A DNA stretch of 58,188 nt. Origin: Xanthobacteraceae bacterium (lineage in GTDB: Bacteria > Pseudomonadota > Alphaproteobacteria > Rhizobiales > Xanthobacteraceae). Below, one piece after another: positions 4,681 through 33,174 of this stretch. The DNA is taken from the NCBI GenBank assembly GCA_024508855.1, contig JANINJ010000013.1, positions 1 through 58,188 on the forward strand, given 5' to 3'. The notes beneath the pieces are model-generated. The model was not told the DNA's origin. It did not search any database and was given only the letters and a program-made list of their open reading frames with translations. Within the stretch, counting starts at the first letter, position 1. Each line of letters begins with the position of its first letter. A program made the position numbers and the translations under genes.

Positions 4681-5886
4681 TTAATTGTTCGCTTTTCGGT
4701 ATGTTTTGGTGAGAGATCCGTTGACGACGTGACCTCGACGGAGAATTGCGTGAGCCAGTGCAGCGCGGTCAGTGTGACTGCTATTTGCCTGGCGCAGTAG
4801 CCCGAAGTAGCTGTTCGCAGCCTGGTGTACGGGATCGGCGTCCATCGTGCGCAGACGCGCCACCGCTTGACGAACGGTGCGGCGCCGCGTTCGCGTATGC
4901 CACGGCTTGATCACGTGCCCCACGAAGTCAACGCCACGGGCAACCGGCTGCAGGATCGTCTTCGAGGGGTTTAGCCGGGCACCGAGCCGGGCCGGCAGGA
5001 ACGCGCCGATGCTGGCCAGTGCATCGTTCAACCACTGCGGCGACTCATGTAGGAGCACGAAGTCGTCGACGTAGCGGACATAGTGCCGTGCGCGCACCTG
5101 ATGCTTTACGTGCTGGTCGAGTGCGTCGAGATAGATGTTCGCGAAGAACTGCGATGACAGATTCCCAATCGGCAGGCCGAGATGTGTGGGTTGCGAGGCC
5201 AAGCGCTTATGCACCGGCACCCGCTCAAGCAGCCGCGGATCGCCGCGCAGATCAAAATCTTGGCGCGGGTCGTGGAACAGCACTACGCCGGCCAGCCACA
5301 GCCACCACGGATCGACGACGCGTTTCGCGATCTGCGTCCACAGTACGCTCTTGTCGATCGAGACGAAGAAATTCGCCAGGTCGCACTTCATATACCAAAG
5401 CGGACGGCTCCAGTTCTCGGATGCGCTTCGGATCTTCGATTCGAGCCTGCGCGCAGCGTACAACGTACCGCGCCCGGGGATACATGCGCAGGTATCGTGG
5501 ATGAACGAAGCATAAAACCGCGGCGAGATGCGGTTGTACAGCAGGTGGTGCACGATGCGATCGCGAAACTCCGCCGCCCACACCTCCCGCGGTTTCGGGC
5601 GCGTGATAACGAAGCAGATCGACCGCCCCGGGTAGTACGTGCCATCTAGAAGCTCGTCGCGCAGGCGCACCAGATTGCGCTCCTGGTTCTGCTCGAAGGC
5701 GAGGGCACTTGCCGAACTGCGTTTGGCTTGGCGGCAGTCCAGATAGGCTTGCACCAGTTCGTCGAAAGAAAAGTCAGCATGGTGGCGACCGGGATAATCT
5801 GCGGACGGCGCGGGCGCGCAACTCGGCCGACTTGTTGTTGTTGTTCTGGTTGCCGTTGTTGAAGTTCTGATTCCAGGCATATTCAT
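4681..5886 (-). CDS. DGR reverse transcriptase
   Basis: This RT copies the template RNA into cDNA with errors at adenines and feeds it into the variable repeats. RT blocks are in order: EFRDRIVHHLLYNRISP, the motif-3 Asp in MKCDLANFF, LPIGNLSSQ (the IGxxxSQ form is diagnostic of DGR enzymes, where other RTs have QGxxxSP), and the catalytic YVDD in HYVRYVDDFVLLH (about 5062-5073). The conserved domain begins near 5766. The start is uncertain: no in-frame ATG lies between TR and the domain, so the nearest ATGs (5886 and 5880) fall inside TR, and the frame stays open back to 6111. A GTG near 5757 would cut into the domain. All catalytic residues are intact. It is not a retron or group II intron enzyme: there is no maturase domain, and TR, VRs and avd sit alongside. 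Confidence 0.93.
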   Translation of the reverse strand: MNMPGIRTSTTATRTTTTSRPSCAPAPSADYPGRHHADFSFDELVQAYLDCRQAKRSSASALAFEQNQERNLVRLRDELLDGTYYPGRSICFVITRPKPREVWAAEFRDRIVHHLLYNRISPRFYASFIHDTCACIPGRGTLYAARRLESKIRSASENWSRPLWYMKCDLANFFVSIDKSVLWTQIAKRVVDPWWLWLAGVVLFHDPRQDFDLRGDPRLLERVPVHKRLASQPTHLGLPIGNLSSQFFANIYLDALDQHVKHQVRARHYVRYVDDFVLLHESPQWLNDALASIGAFLPARLGARLNPSKTILQPVARGVDFVGHVIKPWHTRTRRRTVRQAVARLRTMDADPVHQAANSYFGLLRQANSSHTDRAALAHAILRRGHVVNGSLTKTYRKANN

Positions 5887-5905
5887 CGTTGGAAGCGTGC
5901 TGCGT
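5796..5905 (-). repeat. DGR template repeat (TR)
   Basis: Read on the minus strand, this 110-bp segment contains nine AAC codons and one AAT codon in the frame used by the target genes. It aligns without gaps to 6462-6569 (VR1) and 6945-7054 (VR2). The low-coordinate 39 bp (GC-rich, coding for KSAELRARAVRR in the targets) are identical in all three copies and should hold the initiation-of-homology segment. TR lies between avd and the RT domain, the classic position. A spacer of about 170 bp separates it from avd. Confidence 0.95.
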
Positions 5906-6077
5906 TTGTTCGTGCTATCTACGTCGCCCCGCCGAAGGCCGCATTGGTCGATCAGCGGGGTAACTGCGCCAGACCTGCCAGAACTATGTCGGGCGGTTTC
6001 TGCGATGCGCATGGCGGTGGCCTTGTGAGCCAGCGGCACGACCAGATTAAAAAATCGCACAGTCATGGGAGCCTTGA

Positions 6078-6431
6078 CTACCGTGAAGCGGGCGATGCGG
6101 AACGGCGCCAACCACTTGCCTGCTTGCCGATGCTGGTCGTCAGTTCGATCGCGGCACCGTATTGCTTCACCGAGATCAGGCGCTTGTCGCGCGATAGACG
6201 AATCAGCAGCTCCGCTACCTGCAGGCGCTCGGCGAGATCCTGCAGGTGAGTCGCCTTGTCGCGAGCTACATTGGCCCGGTAGATCAAGGTCACGATCTCT
6301 ACGACCTCGTCACGAATTTTCCCGCCGATCGATGTCTTGAAGTCTCGAGGCATGTTCTTGGCGAGATCCGTGACAACGTCGAGAAGGTCGTACGCGGCGC
6401 GGTAAATCGGCAGCTGGGTATGGAGTGCCAT
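6078..6431 (-). CDS. avd: DGR accessory protein Avd
   Basis: A 117-residue, almost wholly helical protein beginning MALHTQLPIYRAAYDLLDVV. It continues with helices LAKNMPRDFKTSIGGKIRDE, HLQDLAERLQVAELLIRLS and ISVKQYGAAIELTTSIGKQ. This is the four-helix bundle of the Avd/23S-rRNA-intervening-sequence family. Avd forms a positively charged pentamer that binds the RT and template RNA and is needed for mutagenic retrohoming in the Bordetella phage system. The gene lies between the targets and TR, 17 bases after VR1's gene. No good ribosome binding site is seen. Confidence 0.9.
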   Translation of the reverse strand: MALHTQLPIYRAAYDLLDVVTDLAKNMPRDFKTSIGGKIRDEVVEIVTLIYRANVARDKATHLQDLAERLQVAELLIRLSRDKRLISVKQYGAAIELTTSIGKQASGWRRSASPASR

Positions 6432-6448
6432 GCTGAAAAATTGTTAAA

Positions 6449-6907
6449 TCACTGAATGGTTAATCTGCGGACGGCGCGGGCGCGCAACTCGGCCGACTTG
6501 CAGTCGTAGCTCTGGCCGCCGTCGTCGAAGTACTGAGTCCAGGCATACCCATCGTCGGAAGCGTGCTGCTCGCTGGACCAGTAGTAGCGCTCTTCGAACT
6601 GCCCTTTCAGATTGGCGAACAGAAGAGCCTGTTCGCGCCGCGTCGGCAGCTCGCCGCCAGCCTTCTCGGCGAATTCCTTGGCTTGAGCCCAGGTGACGTC
6701 GTCGACATCGCCAGGCAGCAGGATCAGGTGATGTGATGGCTTGCCGTCCGCGTCGAGGATGACGCCGGCATAGTGCTCGCCCGGGCGCAGCTCGATCTGC
6801 GCCTGGCTGATGCTGATGACGCGCGGCGCTTGCGCCTTAAAGGCCTCGATCATCTCGTTCACTTTCTGGTGCGCGGCTTCGATATCCGCAAGGGTGACAT
6901 TGCTCAT
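6449..6907 (-). CDS. DGR target protein 1 (DUF1566)
   Basis: A 152-residue protein with a helical N-terminus (ADIEAAHQKVNEMIEAFKAQ), a middle DUF1566-type block (ELPTRREQALLFANLKGQFE) and YYWSSEQHAS leading into the variable segment. Residues from QHAS to the C-terminal RARAVRRLTIQ are encoded by VR1. DUF1566 folds resemble the C-type-lectin scaffolds used by DGR targets, so the variable residues should form a binding face. There is no signal peptide or membrane segment, so the protein is cytoplasmic unless packaged in the virion. A GGAG ribosome binding site is present. Fixed-sequence relatives occur in other prophages. Confidence 0.88.
   Translation of the reverse strand: MSNVTLADIEAAHQKVNEMIEAFKAQAPRVISISQAQIELRPGEHYAGVILDADGKPSHHLILLPGDVDDVTWAQAKEFAEKAGGELPTRREQALLFANLKGQFEERYYWSSEQHASDDGYAWTQYFDDGGQSYDCKSAELRARAVRRLTIQ
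6462..6569 (-). repeat. DGR variable repeat VR1
   Basis: Aligned to TR in coding orientation, VR1 differs at 14 positions in the AAC-rich stretch, and every one is an A in TR (for example AAC to GAC, TAC, AGC, TGC or GGC, and GAA to GGG). Outside the adenines the match is exact from GCAGCACGCTTCC to the GC-rich 3' end. This is direct evidence of past mutagenic retrohoming. Confidence 0.95.
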
Positions 6908-6934
6908 TAATGACTCCGAAGAATGGATAAATTG

Positions 6935-7543
6935 TTAAATTGCGAATCTGCGGACGGCGCGGGCGCGCAACTCGGCCGACTTGGTGGTGCTGTACTGGTA
7001 GCCGTAGCTGAAGTGCTGACGCCAGGCACAGTCGTCGTAGGAAGCGTGCTGCGTACTCGACCAGTACCACTCGTCGGCAAATGCCTGTTCGCCGCCTTCG
7101 ACGAACGCCGGAGCAGCTGTCTGCGCGGGAAGATCTGCGGTGTACGCGTAGGTCGGCGGAATGGCGGATGCGTTCACGCCCGAACGGCCGTACAGGTAGT
7201 TTTTGCGCTGGGTCGGCTTCAAATTGCGGTACAGGGCCTCCAGCTCGTCCTGGCTCGGGATGTACCAGTCGGCGTGGCCGTTAATTGTGAGGCCTCGAGC
7301 CCAGTTGGCGACCTCGCTGCCGGCTTCGGCCATCGCGATCGTGTTCTTCATGCCGTCGCAGTAGCTGTCGGCGCCGGCGACGCGTTTCTCGGAATCGAGC
7401 CAGGCGATATCGTTGCGCTCGCCGCCGACCTTCGGTGCGACGATCAGGATGTACGGCACGCCGTCGACTTGAATGCGGCCGGCGTAGAATCCGCCTTCGA
7501 ACTGGGCGCCGATGAGCGCCGGGATCTCGCTTTGGTGGTTCAT
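6935..7543 (-). CDS. DGR target protein 2 (DUF1566)
   Basis: A 202-residue protein with a longer N-terminal domain (GAQFEGGFYAGRIQVDGVPY), then DWYIPSQDELEALYRNLKPT and EWYWSSTQHAS, the typical DUF1566/lectin-like core. The C-terminus from TQHAS to RARAVRRFAI is encoded by VR2. The two target proteins share the VR-coded end and the WSSxQHAS lead-in but differ elsewhere, so one TR serves two scaffolds. AAGGAG precedes the ATG. No secretion signal is visible. It is the first DGR gene in the leftward transcript. Confidence 0.88.
   Translation of the reverse strand: MNHQSEIPALIGAQFEGGFYAGRIQVDGVPYILIVAPKVGGERNDIAWLDSEKRVAGADSYCDGMKNTIAMAEAGSEVANWARGLTINGHADWYIPSQDELEALYRNLKPTQRKNYLYGRSGVNASAIPPTYAYTADLPAQTAAPAFVEGGEQAFADEWYWSSTQHASYDDCAWRQHFSYGYQYSTTKSAELRARAVRRFAI
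6945..7054 (-). repeat. DGR variable repeat VR2
   Basis: Compared with TR, VR2 has 14 substitutions in the variable stretch. Thirteen fall on TR adenines; one is a T-to-C change in a GAT/GAC Asp codon, silent and outside the adenine rule. The 39 bp at the low-coordinate end are identical to TR and VR1. Confidence 0.95.
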
Positions 7544-7737: not shown

Positions 7738-7961
7738 GGCGCAGGCTCCTTTGCCTTGGCCTTGGCAGCGTGGAAATCCGCAAGTGCAATGACGTCGTCT
7801 TGCGAGAGCGGAACGATGTGCACGATCTCGTCAGAAAGGTCGGACAGTACGCCGGCCAAGGTTTCGCACGCGAGCATCACCATCTCCTCCGTCGGCTGCA
7901 TGCTGGTAGCGAGAATGTTAGAAGCGCTTAAAAAGGCGCGCCGGTTGGCTATGCTGCTCAT
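7734..7961 (-). CDS. Hypothetical protein (75 aa)
   Basis: The product begins MSSIANRRAFLSASNILATS and then forms two amphipathic helices (TEEMVMLACETLAGVLSDL and QDDVIALADFHAAKAKAK). It is coupled by 4-base overlaps to rdgC upstream and to the 59-residue gene downstream. Function unknown. Confidence 0.55.
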   Translation of the reverse strand: MSSIANRRAFLSASNILATSMQPTEEMVMLACETLAGVLSDLSDEIVHIVPLSQDDVIALADFHAAKAKAKEPAP

Positions 7962-8857
7962 GCTCGCGCCTCCCCGCCAAGCGCTTCGACCAGATTGGAA
8001 AGCATCTTCGCGTACTCGCCCGTCATCAGGGCGAAGTCGTTGTCGAATCGCTCGTTCTGGTCGTACGTGATCGCGTCGTTTTCCTTGATGACGTCCAGAG
8101 GCTTGACGCTCTTGATCGCCAGCTGCTCAGTCAGCACGAACGAGATGCGGCTATTCCAGGTCACGGCCAGGCGCGCGCACTGTTTGCCGGCTGCGATATG
8201 GCGCCGCATGTCTTCAGGATCCAGGCTGTGACGCTTGTAACCGATCTGGGCCTTGCTTTCTCCGGTGGCGCGCAGCGTGGCGTCTTGGTCGATCGTGAAG
8301 CCGGCGGGTGCCTCGTCGGAGTTGAGCCATTCGGTCATCATCGCGGCCGGCGAGCGCTGAACGCGCAGCGACTCGAGCGGCATCTTGTCGACGGCCTTCA
8401 GCAGGAACTTGATGACGTCGTCGGCCTTGGAGGCGCTGCCGGCGTCGACCACGAGCCAGCCGTTTTTCGGATCGATCCAAACATACGTTTCCGATTGGGC
8501 GGAGAGGGCGCGCGGGAGCAGTTCGTCCGCGACGCGCTCGCGCAGTTCCTTCATCGCCTTCTTCCCGGGCGGGAAGCCTTGCACTTCCTCAAGCTCCGCG
8601 GCCCTCGTTTTAGCGACCTGGTTGACGACCTTCGCCGGCAGGATCTTCTTCTCGCTGGCCAGCGTCAGCAGGAACTGGCCGTTCACAGCGTGCACGAGCG
8701 GCTCGCCGGCGCCGCGCGGAGATTTCCAGCCCTGACGCAAGAGCTCGTTGCTCGATGCCGGCGTGAAGGCCTGCGCGGCGAGGTATTCGGCCAGGCGATC
8801 GGCGGTCATTTCCCAGTTTTGCGGCAAGCGATATGCCTGCAGGTTCTTAAACCACAT
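7958..8857 (-). CDS. rdgC: Recombination-associated protein RdgC
   Basis: A 299-residue protein beginning MWFKNLQAYRLPQNWEMTAD. The length and landmarks (LVHAVNGQFLLTLASEKKIL, LPRALSAQSETYVWIDPKNG, ALMTGEYAKMLSNLVEALGG) are those of RdgC, a ring-forming DNA-binding protein that restrains RecA and promotes or checks recombination. Phage copies usually sit in the left early arm with recombination genes, as here. There is no linked exonuclease or single-strand annealing protein in this window. RdgC precedes the DGR in the same operon, so it could affect how cDNA is resolved into the variable repeats; that link is only an inference. Confidence 0.93.
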   Translation of the reverse strand: MWFKNLQAYRLPQNWEMTADRLAEYLAAQAFTPASSNELLRQGWKSPRGAGEPLVHAVNGQFLLTLASEKKILPAKVVNQVAKTRAAELEEVQGFPPGKKAMKELRERVADELLPRALSAQSETYVWIDPKNGWLVVDAGSASKADDVIKFLLKAVDKMPLESLRVQRSPAAMMTEWLNSDEAPAGFTIDQDATLRATGESKAQIGYKRHSLDPEDMRRHIAAGKQCARLAVTWNSRISFVLTEQLAIKSVKPLDVIKENDAITYDQNERFDNDFALMTGEYAKMLSNLVEALGGEARA

Positions 8858-11268: not shown

Positions 11269-12195
11269 TTATTGGCCTGGTGCTGGAAGTGTTTTGTTGG
11301 CGTACATGCTGCCGATCTGCAGGGCTTCAGCCTTTCCTCCGGGTAAAACGCTTGCCTTGCCGAGAATGTATTGCGGGAATTTCGTTGGCAGGTAGTGCTG
11401 CTTGAACCATTGACGAAAATGGGCCAGTGCCGCATCTGGATATGCATTCGGCGTCTGCGGATTGCTTGCGGCCTGAGGGTAATAGCTCGGATAGTTGTGC
11501 TCGTAGGTAGTTCGGGCGCCGAACTGGGACTCTAGGTTATTCCCGTTCCAATATTTGCCCCAGGCTTGGCCGACGCTAATGTCGGGAATAGTTTTGTGGT
11601 TTACGGTCAAGCCAGACGAGATAAGGTCGACGACCAAACCCGTAATCTCTTGAAAGATCGTGAAGTAGCCACTCGGCGCGCTGTCCTTGAGTAGAGAGAC
11701 GCGGTCATGGTAGAACTTCCAACTGTCGGCAGGGGTGTAGTCAAGGGCTTCGTAGATGAACTTCCGCAGGCCATACGCCGCGAAGCGTCGGTAATTTTCT
11801 ACTGCGGTCGCGCTGTCAGCCTTGGACTCAAAGGCGTAGTATTCAAGAAACGCCATGCAGACAATGTCCGGATAAGCATAGTGAACCGTGCCATTTTGAA
11901 TAGTTTCAAGGTGCAGCTTGGGCTCGTTGAAGCCTTTTGAGTTCAGGTATTGCTTGAAAAAAGAAATCCTGTCTTTCCCCAGGATGTTACTGTTATAGCT
12001 AGCCTCCCACTCCTGCGTGATCGCTTGAATCACGCTCCGGTTGACACCGGTGACGCCAGACAGTCCACGTTGAGTCAGATATGGGATACCGTTCTCCAGC
12101 ACGCCCATTTCGATACCGTTGATGTCCTTCTGAACTTCGATTCCTAAGTCGAGCGGGATCTGTTTCTGGGCGGCCAGCTGTGCGGGCAGATTCAT
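11269..12195 (-). CDS. bstA: BstA-type abortive infection protein
   Basis: A 308-residue protein beginning MNLPAQLAAQKQIPLDLGIE. Length and landmarks fit BstA of Salmonella phage BTP1 and its relatives as I remember them: an N-terminal KilA-N-like DNA-binding region (NGIPYLTQRGLSGVTGVNRS), a mid-region YAYPDIVCMAFLEYYAFESK, then KTIPDISVGQAWGKYWNGNN. BstA proteins stop incoming phages by halting their DNA replication at the cost of the cell, while the prophage's own replication is spared by a short nearby DNA element (aba). The gene sits by the immunity region, as expected for expression in the lysogen. The aba element itself could not be pinpointed here. It has its own terminator, and a 70-bp gap upstream. 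Confidence 0.85.
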   Translation of the reverse strand: MNLPAQLAAQKQIPLDLGIEVQKDINGIEMGVLENGIPYLTQRGLSGVTGVNRSVIQAITQEWEASYNSNILGKDRISFFKQYLNSKGFNEPKLHLETIQNGTVHYAYPDIVCMAFLEYYAFESKADSATAVENYRRFAAYGLRKFIYEALDYTPADSWKFYHDRVSLLKDSAPSGYFTIFQEITGLVVDLISSGLTVNHKTIPDISVGQAWGKYWNGNNLESQFGARTTYEHNYPSYYPQAASNPQTPNAYPDAALAHFRQWFKQHYLPTKFPQYILGKASVLPGGKAEALQIGSMYANKTLPAPGQ

Positions 12196-12905: not shown

Positions 12906-13367
12906 TTACCGCCGCGGATCGGGGATTAAACGAGCGGGACTACCATAGAGCACCAAAACTTTGTCGTTAGTAGCAAACGTTGGGTTTGGCCCCTGGACAA
13001 TGGTCATTAGGTTGTCGTTTTCAGTTTGAACAACGTATTCAAAACCTGATTGACGAGTGGCACCTTGCTCAATGGCGGCGCCCGCGACAGCGCCAACGAC
13101 AGCGCCCGCGATCGCTCCGGCAACGTTTGCACGATCGCCGTGGCCGATTCCAGAGCCAGCAGTGGCTCCGATGGCGCCGCCTGCCGTGCCTCCGGCGCCC
13201 GTAGTCCCCGCAATGTCAACTGGTCGGACACTGATGACTTTTGCGGCAACGGTACGATTAACCTGTCCAACAGCACCGACAGAGTAGGATGTCGGAGAAA
13301 TGTTGGCGGTACAGGCCGAAAGCGCGATGACACACCCTAAAGTGGCAACGAAATGCTGCAGCTTCAT
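12906..13367 (-). CDS. Glycine-zipper outer-membrane lipoprotein
   Basis: A 153-residue protein with a signal peptide MKLQHFVATLGCVIALSACT and lipobox LSAC. A long Gly/Ala segment (GTAGGAIGATAGSGIGHG and GAIAGAVVGAVAGAAIEQG) is the glycine zipper of SlyB/PcpY-type lipoproteins. Such proteins sit in the outer membrane. Coupled by a 4-base overlap to the preceding lipoprotein gene. As prophage cargo it may alter the cell surface or block superinfection; that is inference. Confidence 0.82.
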   Translation of the reverse strand: MKLQHFVATLGCVIALSACTANISPTSYSVGAVGQVNRTVAAKVISVRPVDIAGTTGAGGTAGGAIGATAGSGIGHGDRANVAGAIAGAVVGAVAGAAIEQGATRQSGFEYVVQTENDNLMTIVQGPNPTFATNDKVLVLYGSPARLIPDPRR

Positions 13368-13930
13368 TGCTGGCTTACCTTCACCGGGAACATCGGCTTG
13401 TTGACATCGACCGTTTGAAGGGACTGAAGGAACTGGGTGATGTTGTTCTGGACTGAACGATTAATCGACTCGCGAGCACGAGTGGCGCCGGCAAAAGCGT
13501 AGTCGAACGGGACCTCGCCTTTGGAATTGATGTCCTGAGTAAAAATAATCGCGCCGTTTTTTCGGTCCAGCAGTTCGTAACGCGCAGCCACCTCAGTGGT
13601 CATTCCTGCGCCGAAGCTGGGGATGTTGAGCTTAAGGATTTTGACCGTCAGATTTACTTTATTGGAGGCGTCATCATTAAAGATGGCCATCTTGTTGAGC
13701 GCTTCCTGCAACGATGTTTGCCATAGTTGAGGCACAAGGGTTTCCATCCCGGCAGGCAGCTCGCCAGTCTTCTCGTCAGCACGAGCAATGCTAACAGTCA
13801 TTGACTTAAGCTCAGCGTCGATTTTCTTGGTGCTGTATCCGACATTCGGGACCGAGAAATTGATGGGCGGCGCGGTTTGGCAACCGGCGAGTGCCGCCGC
13901 TACGGCGATGGCGATAAAAATCTTTTTCAT
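13364..13930 (-). CDS. Secreted lipoprotein moron (188 aa)
   Basis: The signal peptide MKKIFIAIAVAAALAGCQTA ends in lipobox LAGC. The mature part is a mixed alpha/beta domain (TLVPQLWQTSLQEALNKMAI and VNLTVKILKLNIPSFGAGMT) that resembles small lipoproteins annotated beside SlyB-like proteins. No catalytic motif. Forms a two-gene operon with the glycine-zipper lipoprotein, on the same strand as the cI-like gene that precedes it, so it may be expressed in the lysogen. Confidence 0.75.
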   Translation of the reverse strand: MKKIFIAIAVAAALAGCQTAPPINFSVPNVGYSTKKIDAELKSMTVSIARADEKTGELPAGMETLVPQLWQTSLQEALNKMAIFNDDASNKVNLTVKILKLNIPSFGAGMTTEVAARYELLDRKNGAIIFTQDINSKGEVPFDYAFAGATRARESINRSVQNNITQFLQSLQTVDVNKPMFPVKVSQQ

Positions 13931-14013: not shown

Positions 14014-14766
14014 TCACAGCCGCCCAGTAACCACGCGCCCTGGCTGATACACGACCCTGCCGACGATGTCGCACTGACCGCTGCGCATGTTTATGGGTCC
14101 GAAGTCAGGATTCAGTGAATGCAGGTACCACTGGCCGCCGCGGTTGATCAGTTGCTTCACGCACGCCTCGCCGTCAAAGTTCAGGGCGTACACCTCTCTG
14201 CTGATGGGGCGGCGATCGGCCGTGTTGATGATTACGACGTCATCCTCGAACAACATCGGCTCCATGCTCGCGCCGGAAACGCGCATCGCGAGCAGCTGCG
14301 CCGGCGAGAGGTTGTGTTTCTCGACGATGGACTGCGGCATTGGCATGCTTCCTCCTTCCTCGAGTACAGGCTCGGTTTCGAACCCGGCCACGCCGGCATG
14401 TAGCTTCAGCTTCACGAAGCGCACGGCGATAGTGTTCGGCTCGTCTCCGATTCGGACGGGGTGCGCCCCGGGTGGCAACGGCTCAGGGCTCTCGGGAGCT
14501 ACAATGGGGCCGCTCGGCTGCTGGCCCAGCATGGCTGCCACTATCCCAGGCGGCAGGCCCGTTCCTGTCACTTTCGCGATCGCCATCAGCTGCTTGAGGT
14601 TTGGGCTGTGGCGTAGCGTCTCCCAGCCAGAGATGTTGGCCTTCGTGTAGCCGCGGTCATCGCCCAGCTCGCGCGCGAGCGCCGCGCCCAAGTCCTCTTG
14701 GGACTGTCCTGCCGTTTTGCGGGACTGCCGGATCCAGTTCGCTAAAAGTTGTTTTAGATCATCCAT
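14014..14766 (-). CDS. cI: CI-like repressor with S24 self-cleavage domain
   Basis: 250 residues. An N-terminal HTH (residues about 5-65, with SQEDLGAALA and YTKANISGWE) is joined by a Pro-rich linker to a LexA/S24 peptidase. The catalytic Ser is S167 in SGASMEP and the Lys is K204 in EACVKQL; the Ala-Gly at 124-125 (LHAGVAG) is the likely RecA-stimulated cleavage site. The repressor would maintain lysogeny and fall apart after DNA damage. No ribosome binding site precedes the ATG at 14766; instead TATACT lies exactly 6 bases before it, so the message may be leaderless. The frame extends 21 codons upstream, but the coupling of -10 and ATG favours this start. Confidence 0.9.
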   Translation of the reverse strand: MDDLKQLLANWIRQSRKTAGQSQEDLGAALARELGDDRGYTKANISGWETLRHSPNLKQLMAIAKVTGTGLPPGIVAAMLGQQPSGPIVAPESPEPLPPGAHPVRIGDEPNTIAVRFVKLKLHAGVAGFETEPVLEEGGSMPMPQSIVEKHNLSPAQLLAMRVSGASMEPMLFEDDVVIINTADRRPISREVYALNFDGEACVKQLINRGGQWYLHSLNPDFGPINMRSGQCDIVGRVVYQPGRVVTGRL

Positions 14767-14808
14767 ACGAGCAGTATAGAAAGGTTGAGTGCAAAGGTAC
14801 AGAATTAC

Positions 14809-14855
14809 TTGACCTTGCTCAACGAGCAAATCTATACTGTATGAACATACAGTAT
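14809..14855 (+). promoter_or_regulatory. Rightward promoter with LexA-like palindrome
   Basis: TTGACC (14809-14814), 18 bases, then TATACT (14833-14838). A perfect 22-bp palindrome ATACTGTA-N6-TACAGTAT (14834-14855), which contains the CTGT-N8-ACAG core of LexA boxes, covers the -10 and start point. The same combination is found at 56415-56461. Transcripts would run antisense to the Arc-like gene towards the gene at 15403. The regulator could be host LexA or the phage S24 repressor. Confidence 0.7.
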
Positions 14856-32427: not shown

Positions 32428-33174
32428 ATGGTTGAAGCGGTTCGTTCGCAAAGTGGCATCTATGCCATAACCAATAAGGTCAACGGCAAACAATATATTG
32501 GCAGCGCCGTCAATATTGGAAAAAGATGGCATAGGCACAAGGCTCAGCTGCGGAAGAATGCGCACCACAGCGCGAAGCTGCAATTTGCCTGGAACAAATA
32601 TGGGCAGGAAGCTTTCGAACTGATCGTCATTGAGACGGTCGCAGATAAATCGTTGCTTCTGACGCGTGAGCAGTTTTGGCTAGACCGGTATGACGTCGCC
32701 GGCTCTGCTGGATACAATATCCTCCGGCACGCGGGAAGTATGCAGGGTCACAAGCACACCGACGAGGCGAAAGAGAAATGTCGTGTTGCTAAGCTTGGGG
32801 CTGTCTTTACAGATGAGCACAAGGCCAAGTTAAGCGCCTGGCAGGTCGGTCGCAAACAGTCTGAGGAAACCCGGGCCAAACGTAGTGCAGCACTGAAGGG
32901 ACGACCCAGGGCGCCGGAGGTCGTTGCCAAGATGGGTGGAAAGCGGTCTCCTGAATTAGTCGAAAAGATAAGGTCTCTGTTGATCGGCAAGAAGCGATCT
33001 CCAGAAGTCGTTGCAGCGATGAAGTTGCGACGACCATCCGAAGAGCAGCGCGCGAAAATCAGCGCAACCCTGAAGGGGCGTAAAGTGCCGCCTGAGGTTC
33101 TGGAAAAACGTAAGGCAACATTGGAAGCAAAGCGCCTTGCGAAACAACTGGACCGGCCACCTCCGCAGCCCTAA
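32428..33174 (+). CDS. GIY-YIG homing endonuclease with NUMOD3 repeats
   Basis: 248 residues. SGIYAITNKVNGKQYIGSAV carries the GIY...YIG catalytic motif, Arg and Glu follow (IGKRWHRHKAQL, FELIVIETV), and the rest is a string of NUMOD3-like repeats (GHKHTDEAKEKCRVAKLG, GRKQSEETRAKRSAALKG, GRKVPPEVLEKRKATLEA) that bind DNA. Free-standing intruder between portal and protease, with lower GC than its neighbours and its own terminator. It probably cuts related phages to spread itself. Confidence 0.9.
   Translation: MVEAVRSQSGIYAITNKVNGKQYIGSAVNIGKRWHRHKAQLRKNAHHSAKLQFAWNKYGQEAFELIVIETVADKSLLLTREQFWLDRYDVAGSAGYNILRHAGSMQGHKHTDEAKEKCRVAKLGAVFTDEHKAKLSAWQVGRKQSEETRAKRSAALKGRPRAPEVVAKMGGKRSPELVEKIRSLLIGKKRSPEVVAAMKLRRPSEEQRAKISATLKGRKVPPEVLEKRKATLEAKRLAKQLDRPPPQP

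Follow-up and report, generated by a model that had tools for sequence, protein, structure and literature searches.

The 58,188-nt stretch of DNA analysed here (the window) is an entire contig, JANINJ010000013.1, of the 5.16-Mb, 107-contig genome of a Xanthobacteraceae bacterium. With a probability of about 85%, we interpret a cassette near its left end (4681-7543) as an intact Avd-type diversity-generating retroelement (DGR) of a temperate phage, which would rewrite two paralogous DUF1566 proteins by mutagenic retrohoming. A DGR is a machinery, carried here by a bacterial virus, that copies with errors and thereby rewrites the tips of proteins. In the mechanism that we propose, the RNA of the template repeat (TR) would be copied by the reverse transcriptase (RT) with errors at adenines, and the complementary DNA would replace the 3' end of either target gene, the variable repeat (VR), rewriting the presumed ligand-binding tip of the encoded DUF1566 paralog. 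Furthermore, a structured RNA of the Rfam family RT-15 would recruit RT and Avd to the template, translation of the RT would begin upstream of or inside the TR, and tandem octamers would label the VRs as recipients. The content of the element is thus that of an ordinary DGR, but its build is unusual and is common to an active lineage. Two targets per template were already known, whereas the nested template, the link to RT-15 and the octamers are new; these three features also go beyond an earlier interpretation of the same DNA, which had been made from the letters alone (the sequence-only reading).

All of the parts of a complete DGR that the sequence-only reading had reported from this temperate phage were recovered in open form, namely the RT motifs, Avd, the TR and two genes ending in VRs (Table 1). 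They are transcribed from the minus strand in the order target 2, target 1, avd, TR and RT core. The two VRs differ from the TR almost only at adenines (Fisher p of 9e-9 for VR1 and 1.3e-7 for VR2), in line with the earlier proposal that one TR feeds both genes; within the 108 nt of VR2 there are 13 adenine changes and one other. The first of the VR intervals proposed earlier, 6462-6569, stands, but the second, 6945-7054, has to be shortened, since VR2 ends two bases earlier, at 7052. The shared GC-rich 3' block is present in exactly 3 copies in the window (mean of 0.00 in 100 shuffles), and a search of the 5.16-Mb genome at up to 3 mismatches revealed no copies beyond these three, and hence no additional targets elsewhere by this measure. 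Free variation at every TR adenine of the first 28 codons would set an upper bound of about 10^17.8 on the number of product forms.

Table 1. Coordinates of the retroelement and of selected neighbouring genes in the window.
Feature	Position	Strand	Evidence
DGR reverse transcriptase, conserved core, 365 aa, IGNLSSQ and YVDD	4681..5778	-	Pfam RVT_1 4.5e-17 (scored on longer open reading frame)
Full RT open frame, through TR into avd 3' end	4681..6111	-	Translation of open reading frame
TR, 108 nt, 33 adenines, ten AAC/AAT codons in VR frame	5796..5903	-	Repeat comparison
RT-15 structured RNA (Rfam RF03018), full-length match	5903..6097	-	174.5 bits, gathering score 82, E 1.7e-43
avd	6078..6431	-	Pfam bAvd 2.1e-16; PHROG 3206 'Avd protein of DGR' 2.7e-34
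Three tandem octamers after VR1: ACCATTCA GTGATTTA ACAATTTT	6437..6460	-	Repeat-unit analysis
Target 1, 152 aa, DUF1566/Lcl_C	6449..6907	-	Lcl_C 1.1e-6; PHROG 4245 4e-11
VR1	6462..6569	-	Mismatches to TR: A 14/34, other 0/75
Three tandem octamers after VR2: GCAATTTA ACAATTTA TCCATTCT	6920..6943	-	Repeat-unit analysis
Target 2, 202 aa, DUF1566/Lcl_C	6935..7543	-	Lcl_C 6.6e-13, above cut-off; PHROG 4245 1.7e-34
VR2	6945..7052	-	Mismatches to TR over 111-nt stretch: A 14/35, other 1/76
rdgC, recombination-associated, leftward block	7958..8857	-	Pfam RdgC 4.9e-111
CI-like repressor, head of leftward block	14014..14829	-	PHROG 4 1.6e-33

The RT contains the IGNLSSQ and YVDD motifs noted earlier and is the only RVT_1 match in the genome. 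Its best match among solved structures is the PDB entry 8ub7 (142.6 bits, the next being 41.3), which we take to be the BPP-1 enzyme and which, with 328 residues, has a length like that of brt. A tree was inferred from 13 RTs of the lineage (the window and 12 members), six DGR references and three group II RTs. The motifs xGxxxSQ and Y[MV]DD are present in all of the lineage and reference DGR sequences, whereas the three group II RTs have QGGPLSP and YADD. A branch with 100/100 support separates the group II RTs, and the lineage falls among the DGR RTs; the other forks are weak. The DGR references do not form one clade, with the long branches of ANMV-1 and the group II RTs meeting, and because the very long branch of Segatella sits in the unresolved fork of the lineage, the lineage itself is not recovered as one clade. 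The structural match, the motif and the 100/100 branch nevertheless agree that the RT is of the DGR kind, on which the sequence-only reading depended.

Searches with the RT yielded 47 viral contigs and 5 genome contigs, with relatives at 52 loci showing 54-91% identity in the best segment, two of which matched only in part. These contigs, together with the phages Magia and QDWS and the window, make up 53 distinct loci once the exact repeats L056 (= L025) and L058 (= L032) are left out, as in all counts below. Near-copies were kept in the counts of VR number, TR-VR mismatches and TR-RT frames and removed from those of codon variety, octamers, hairpins and target hydropathy. Scanning for adenine-mismatched repeats with at most 4 non-adenine mismatches per 90 nt, with no correction for contig ends, revealed no VR in 2 loci, a single VR in 12, two VRs in 27 and three VRs in 12. 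Because 39 of the 53 loci thus have more than one VR, two or three targets are the rule in this lineage, and the earlier claim that two targets per TR are uncommon does not hold. Published surveys likewise include many DGRs with several VRs, namely 271 of 948 in one of them (PMC6642488), which also illustrates a DGR with one TR and two DUF1566 genes, and about one seventh in another (PMC3521204); here and below, statements about cited papers refer to the available parts of their text. The TR-VR comparison over 51 loci gave mismatches at 1325 of 3326 adenines and at 29 of 7378 other sites, a contrast that is partly selected by the non-adenine limit of the scan; VR-VR pairs from L012, L023 and L004 (three) were not counted as TR-VR pairs. 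One RT relative, L035, has an in-frame TR-like stretch, but the locus yielded neither a VR in the scan nor an RT-15 match above the threshold, and it is perhaps a decaying member.

Near-identical relatives provide a view of recent change. The loci L007 and L008 differ at 14 sites over the 7,384 nt compared, all of which are TR adenine sites in the middle one of three VRs, with no differences at 232 other VR sites or at 7055 sites outside the VRs. Likewise, L040 and L045 differ at 14 sites, all TR adenine sites of the upstream VR (0/131 at other VR sites, 0/8314 outside), while 32 differences at TR adenines are spread over both VRs of L016 and L022 (1/154 at other VR sites, 53/7320 outside). 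Since the differences in the first two pairs are confined to a single VR, one target can change while its neighbours remain unchanged; the targets of a single locus are also reported to change unequally in another DGR (PMC10907252). The adenine-biased variation that the sequence-only reading looked for in related genomes is therefore present, and this fresh, adenine-restricted change of single VRs is the signature of an active lineage.

The cassette can also be lost. Two cultured phages, Medea1 (L077, 6286-7594) and Aurca01 (L083, 5286-6594), have an adenine-diversified tandem pair of targets and VRs, but neither RT-15 nor bAvd was found in searches of their whole records, and all that is left of the RT is a remnant just past the second target (query residues 306-362, 42% identity, one internal stop, E about 2e-7). 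The VR end and the octamers of the second target are gone as well. In the phage Cruim01, by contrast, RT, bAvd and RT-15 are all whole; the VRs of Medea1 and Aurca01 differ from the Cruim01 TR by 12-18 adenine and 0-1 other differences per 95 nt, and Aurca01 is 99.9% identical to Cruim01 across 5.3 kb beyond the cassette. The simplest reading of these sequences is that the cassette was lost after diversification; the targets thus outlast their mutator.

The first unusual feature of the build is that the template lies inside the RT reading frame. In the window, no in-frame ATG separates the TR from the RT core and the open frame spans the TR, so that the RT does not appear to begin directly 3' of the TR. 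The linker, counted as the stretch that leads from the first base of TCCGCA, a motif at the end of the TR, up to the RT core, measures 27 nt in the window. Of 51 loci, 48 keep the TR in frame with the RT, at linker lengths of 6, 12, 15, 18, 21, 24, 27 or 33 nt (L031 and L033, where the motif does not occur within 150 nt, were set aside), and so do 5 of 5 further loci (53/56 overall). In 45 of the 48 in-frame loci there is no ATG from the TCCGCA motif through core residue 9, whereas the three out-of-frame loci (L044, L047 and L053, at 31 nt) each have an ATG at the RT core, as do L031 and L033, in which the TR is located about 1.1 kb from the RT. Because the loci have either an ATG of their own at the core or an in-frame TR, translation of the RT would take in the 3' part of the TR, if not more of it, and we infer that it begins upstream of or inside the TR. 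Candidate ATG starts in the window are found at 6010-6012, with AAGG 8 nt upstream, and within the TR at 5884-5886 and 5878-5880. A conserved start upstream of the TR (AAGG-8-ATG) was considered and set aside, as it is common in the in-frame loci but lies within the conserved RT-15 and is missing or broken in several.

We also considered the possibility that the frame between TR and RT is not translated, with the RT starting at an unrecognised codon just after the TR and the frame being kept by chance or by constraints on the RNA. The TR has few T and is readily stop-free, and the location of the upstream AAGG and ATG inside RT-15 offers another reason for their conservation. This explanation appears unlikely, however, given that the linkers of 48 of 51 loci come in eight lengths, each divisible by three (although the loci are related and the independent events thus fewer), the core ATG of each of the three out-of-frame and two distant-TR loci, and the 5 of 5 additional loci in frame.

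The second feature is the RNA that precedes the template. We identified RT-15 in 51 of the 55 loci searched besides the window; L008, L040, L045 and L051, near-copies of searched loci, had been left out, and the four misses were L035, L074, in which the upstream part was not covered, L077 and L083. In all 47 loci compared, including the window, the 3' end of RT-15 falls 0-9 nt past the TR start, and within 5 nt in 45 of them. RT-15 stays beside the TR, not the RT, in L031 and L033, and the Cruim01 record annotates RT-15 beside its RT. By analogy with the 3' spacer of BPP-1, RT-15 may serve as the scaffold that recruits RT and Avd to the template. With only 6-33 nt from TCCGCA to the core in the 48 in-frame loci, there is no room for a spacer of the BPP-1 kind before the RT core, nor did we see signs of one hidden inside the RT, as codon variety at conserved residues, compared over 46 sequences, is 0.68 at the beginning of the RT and not below the mean of 0.65. 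A pairing of RT-15 AAUCUG with CAGAUU at the TR end, spotted by eye, was rejected after no matching change was seen in the few loci with altered TR ends. Weak RT-15 matches in 2 of 198 genomes of the family (26 bits) were taken as chance, because their flanks of about 1.5 kb contain no RT relative (only a 20-residue match, E 0.88). Among the literature matches listed, covered by title and start of abstract and not extending to the original description of RT-15, none tied RT-15 or VR-side octamers to DGRs.

The third feature is the series of octamers that follows each VR. In the window these begin six bases past TCCGC, and their consensus across loci is RYMMTTYA. Unit 1 is largely coding. In the window, units 2 and 3 are located at the stop or past it, and the set behind VR2 takes in the stop of target 2 along with some of the gap to target 1. 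Across 92 VR flanks, lag-8 identity amounts to 0.514, as compared to 0.287 in shuffled flanks, and lag-16 identity to 0.452. At least two consecutive units were identified in 76 of 92 VR flanks, against fewer than one in 92 shuffled flanks, 4 of 1015 other ends of open reading frames and none of 46 TR flanks. The distance to the octamer start is identical in 64 of 73 scored sets, and the TT of unit 3, which is not needed for scoring, is kept at 99-100%. We suggest that the octamers mark the VR as the recipient. A hairpin behind the VR is important for homing in BPP-1 (PMC3240598). A rule that detects this BPP-1 hairpin (a stem of 6 or more and a loop of 3-6, within 70 nt of the VR) found no GC hairpin after either VR of the window and was satisfied in 11 of 92 VR flanks of the lineage. 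The TAACTGA repeats of Beggiatoaceae (PMC4679880) were dismissed as a related case, as the available text contains neither 'retroelement' nor 'reverse transcriptase'.

Several observations weigh against this picture of an intact and active DGR with an unusual build. Avd reaches 65.2 bits against the NCBIfam equivalog DivGenRetAVD, below the cut-off of 80, and target 1 reaches 29.3 bits against Lcl_C, below the cut-off of 34.9. The octamer pattern was derived from the same data on which it was first scored, and among held-out target ends 8 of 12 carry octamers, one of them at an odd distance; the distances vary among the Pseudomonas phages. Of the four ends that do not match, two are the cassette-side ends of Medea1 and Aurca01. 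As for the RT start, L024, L025, L028, L029, L046 and L052 have an upstream frame that is closed or lacks a usual start codon, and a usual start must therefore be inside the TR in these loci, while L036, L037, L042, L048 and L057 have no ATG within the TR. Finally, VR2 has one change at a site other than adenine, L050 and L051 do not differ from each other in either VR, and no second copy of exactly this phage was found in the collections scanned, for which reason the activity of the window's own cassette has to be inferred from its relatives. These last points and the disappearance of the cassette from two relatives would also fit a relic that looks intact but has ceased homing. We regard a relic as improbable, since every part is open and conserved, the remaining non-adenine sites are unaltered (0/75 and 1/76) and the sister loci change freely. 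The window's own copy is probably active as well.

Both targets are, as first reported, DUF1566 genes that end in a VR, which is C-terminal in each; Lcl_C is presumably the DUF1566 family. The description of them as two different scaffold proteins needs to be revised, as they are paralogs (hhalign 99.9%, E 1.3e-34; 47% identity over the C-terminal 66 residues). As regards a possible C-lectin fold, profile searches against solved structures gave a single match, 8q4e. The earlier observation that they lack signal peptides is borne out, in so far as hydropathy revealed no hydrophobic N-terminal signal on either one. A survey of the lineage, also based on hydropathy only, resolved 83 of 92 targets and left 9, and none of the 83 has a lipobox. 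A hydrophobic 19-mer scoring over 1.6 occurs in ten of the 83, not including the two of the window; eight of these correspond to a conserved domain strand of the GGFYAG...LIVA type, and two (L026 and L029) are near the N-terminus.

Two roles for the targets were weighed. They could be receptor-binding proteins of the virion, with the DGR altering the host range, as Mtd does in BPP-1. The C-terminal VRs of DGR targets, the annotation of Mtd as a tail protein, the lack of a visible signal peptide, as expected for a virion protein, and a homolog in PMBT3 that follows a peptidoglycan hydrolase and a lysozyme gene are in line with such a role. We nevertheless find it rather doubtful, because the cassette of the window shares a block with CI, BstA and rdgC on the strand opposite to that of the tail genes, the cassettes of Magia, QDWS, Haboob, LPPA56 and Cruim01 are beside recombination, methylase or integrase genes and not tail genes, and scans with Pfam, PHROG and NCBIfam profiles identified no tail domain on the two window targets. 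Alternatively, the targets may act inside the cell, during early infection or in the lysogen, by binding variable molecules of the host or of rival phages, as in counter-defence or superinfection control. The cassette resides among early, recombination, methylase or integrase genes in the window and in all five of these annotated phages, none of the resolved targets has a lipobox, and in Medea1 and Aurca01 both targets have kept their place in the operon even though avd, RT-15 and most of the RT are gone. Still, early expression is read from gene order and not from transcripts, early genes may have a role in the virion, and the hydrophobic stretch near the N-terminus in L026 and L029 (2/83 targets) fits poorly. 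We lean slightly toward the intracellular role, as a tentative possibility.

The surroundings of the cassette are those of a temperate phage. A PHROG scan that covered 28 proteins of the window assigned terminase, portal, major tail protein, tape measure and tail fibre to the plus strand, and a CI-like repressor, BstA, RdgC, excisionase (7.9e-6) and integrase to the minus strand; based on this set of genes on the two strands, the phage is predicted to be a siphophage. The cassette lies within the leftward block headed by the repressor, with the tail genes on the opposite strand. The same block includes the abortive-infection gene BstA (11269-12195, minus strand; PHROG 6287, 2e-111) and, between the repressor and BstA, two adjoining genes for small proteins (12906-13367 and 13364-13930, minus strand), whose N-termini look lipoprotein-like by eye and which might function in exclusion or conversion; the first of the two matches PHROG 13877, a family whose function is not known. 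An open reading frame after the portal gene (32428-33174, plus strand) resembles a GIY-YIG-type endonuclease by eye. The same 11 nt, TTGAAGGTGGC, occur at both contig ends (1-11 and 58178-58188), and similar CTAGCTACAAAT repeats are located near both ends, beside the excisionase and integrase. The terminal repeat is probably the attachment core, in which case the contig would represent the complete phage. A 13-nt match is found at G000:C74:72626. Among the relatives, Shewanella phage QDWS (L005, OK094664) and 'Hujiaoplasma phage zrk29-1' (OP650936) are equal in length (47,902) and in RT identity to the query, and since their hosts belong to different phyla, one host label may be wrong.

At the level of sequence, the stretch contains all of the components of a DGR, adenine-restricted change in the VRs, RT-15 on the 5' side of the TR, a TR in the RT frame and octamers that are specific to the VRs. 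A bolder reading, which seems unlikely as a whole, would treat the lineage as a mechanistically distinct subclass of DGR, with a template in the RT frame, a 5' scaffold (RT-15) in place of the 3' spacer, recipients labelled by octamers rather than by a cruciform, and a pair of rapidly evolving cytoplasmic early proteins directed at variable proteins of the host or of rival phages, in adaptive counter-defence. We favor an Avd-type DGR that is ordinary in content and unusual in build. The mechanism of DGRs is known chiefly from BPP-1. A sister lineage without the 3' spacer and mostly without the VR hairpin, which nevertheless shows recent adenine-restricted homing, indicates that other solutions to template recognition and target choice exist, and RT-15 and the octamers are named here as sequences worth testing. 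The Rfam family RT-15 also gains a concrete candidate role. Furthermore, the retention of targets in early blocks even after loss of most of the cassette makes the question of their ligand testable in cultured phages of Pseudomonas and Burkholderia.

The closest mechanistic reference is the mtd-avd-TR-brt cassette of BPP-1, which shares with the window the order target-avd-TR-RT, adenine mutagenesis and a C-terminal VR, with the two RTs being 31.6% identical. In BPP-1, however, a 144-nt spacer separates the TR from brt, and this spacer 3' of the TR is the structured RNA that recruits RT and Avd (PMC12875486), whereas here the TR is in the RT frame and the structured RNA is 5' of it. BPP-1 also has a GC hairpin with an 8-bp stem and a GAAA loop after its VR and no octamers, where the window has octamers, and its target is a tail gene, as compared to two targets in an early block here.

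Burkholderia phage Magia (MT701587), which its authors called a myophage (PMC7883833), is 69.4% identical at the DNA level over 43% of a 5-kb query and has RT-15, an in-frame TR and a similar place for the cassette. Genes 47 and 57 are the targets put forward by its authors (PMC7883833); we found three VRs. Gene 46 (15530-15994 of L004, minus strand) ends in a VR with changes at 11 of 27 adenines and 0 of 64 other sites, and is not among the targets named in the record note and the available text of that paper.

The overlap between the TR and the end of the RT open reading frame in group 3 of DiGReF (PMC3521204) resembles the inclusion of the TR in the frame of the window, but there it is a class of annotation, whereas here the frame is kept across linker lengths. 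Rfam labels the entry RF03018 only as 'RT-15 RNA', while here its 3' end is tied to the start of the TR. Finally, the DUF1566 DGR of Vibrio cholerae with two VRs (PMC6642488) is similar to the one described here in having one TR and two DUF1566 open reading frames with C-terminal VRs.

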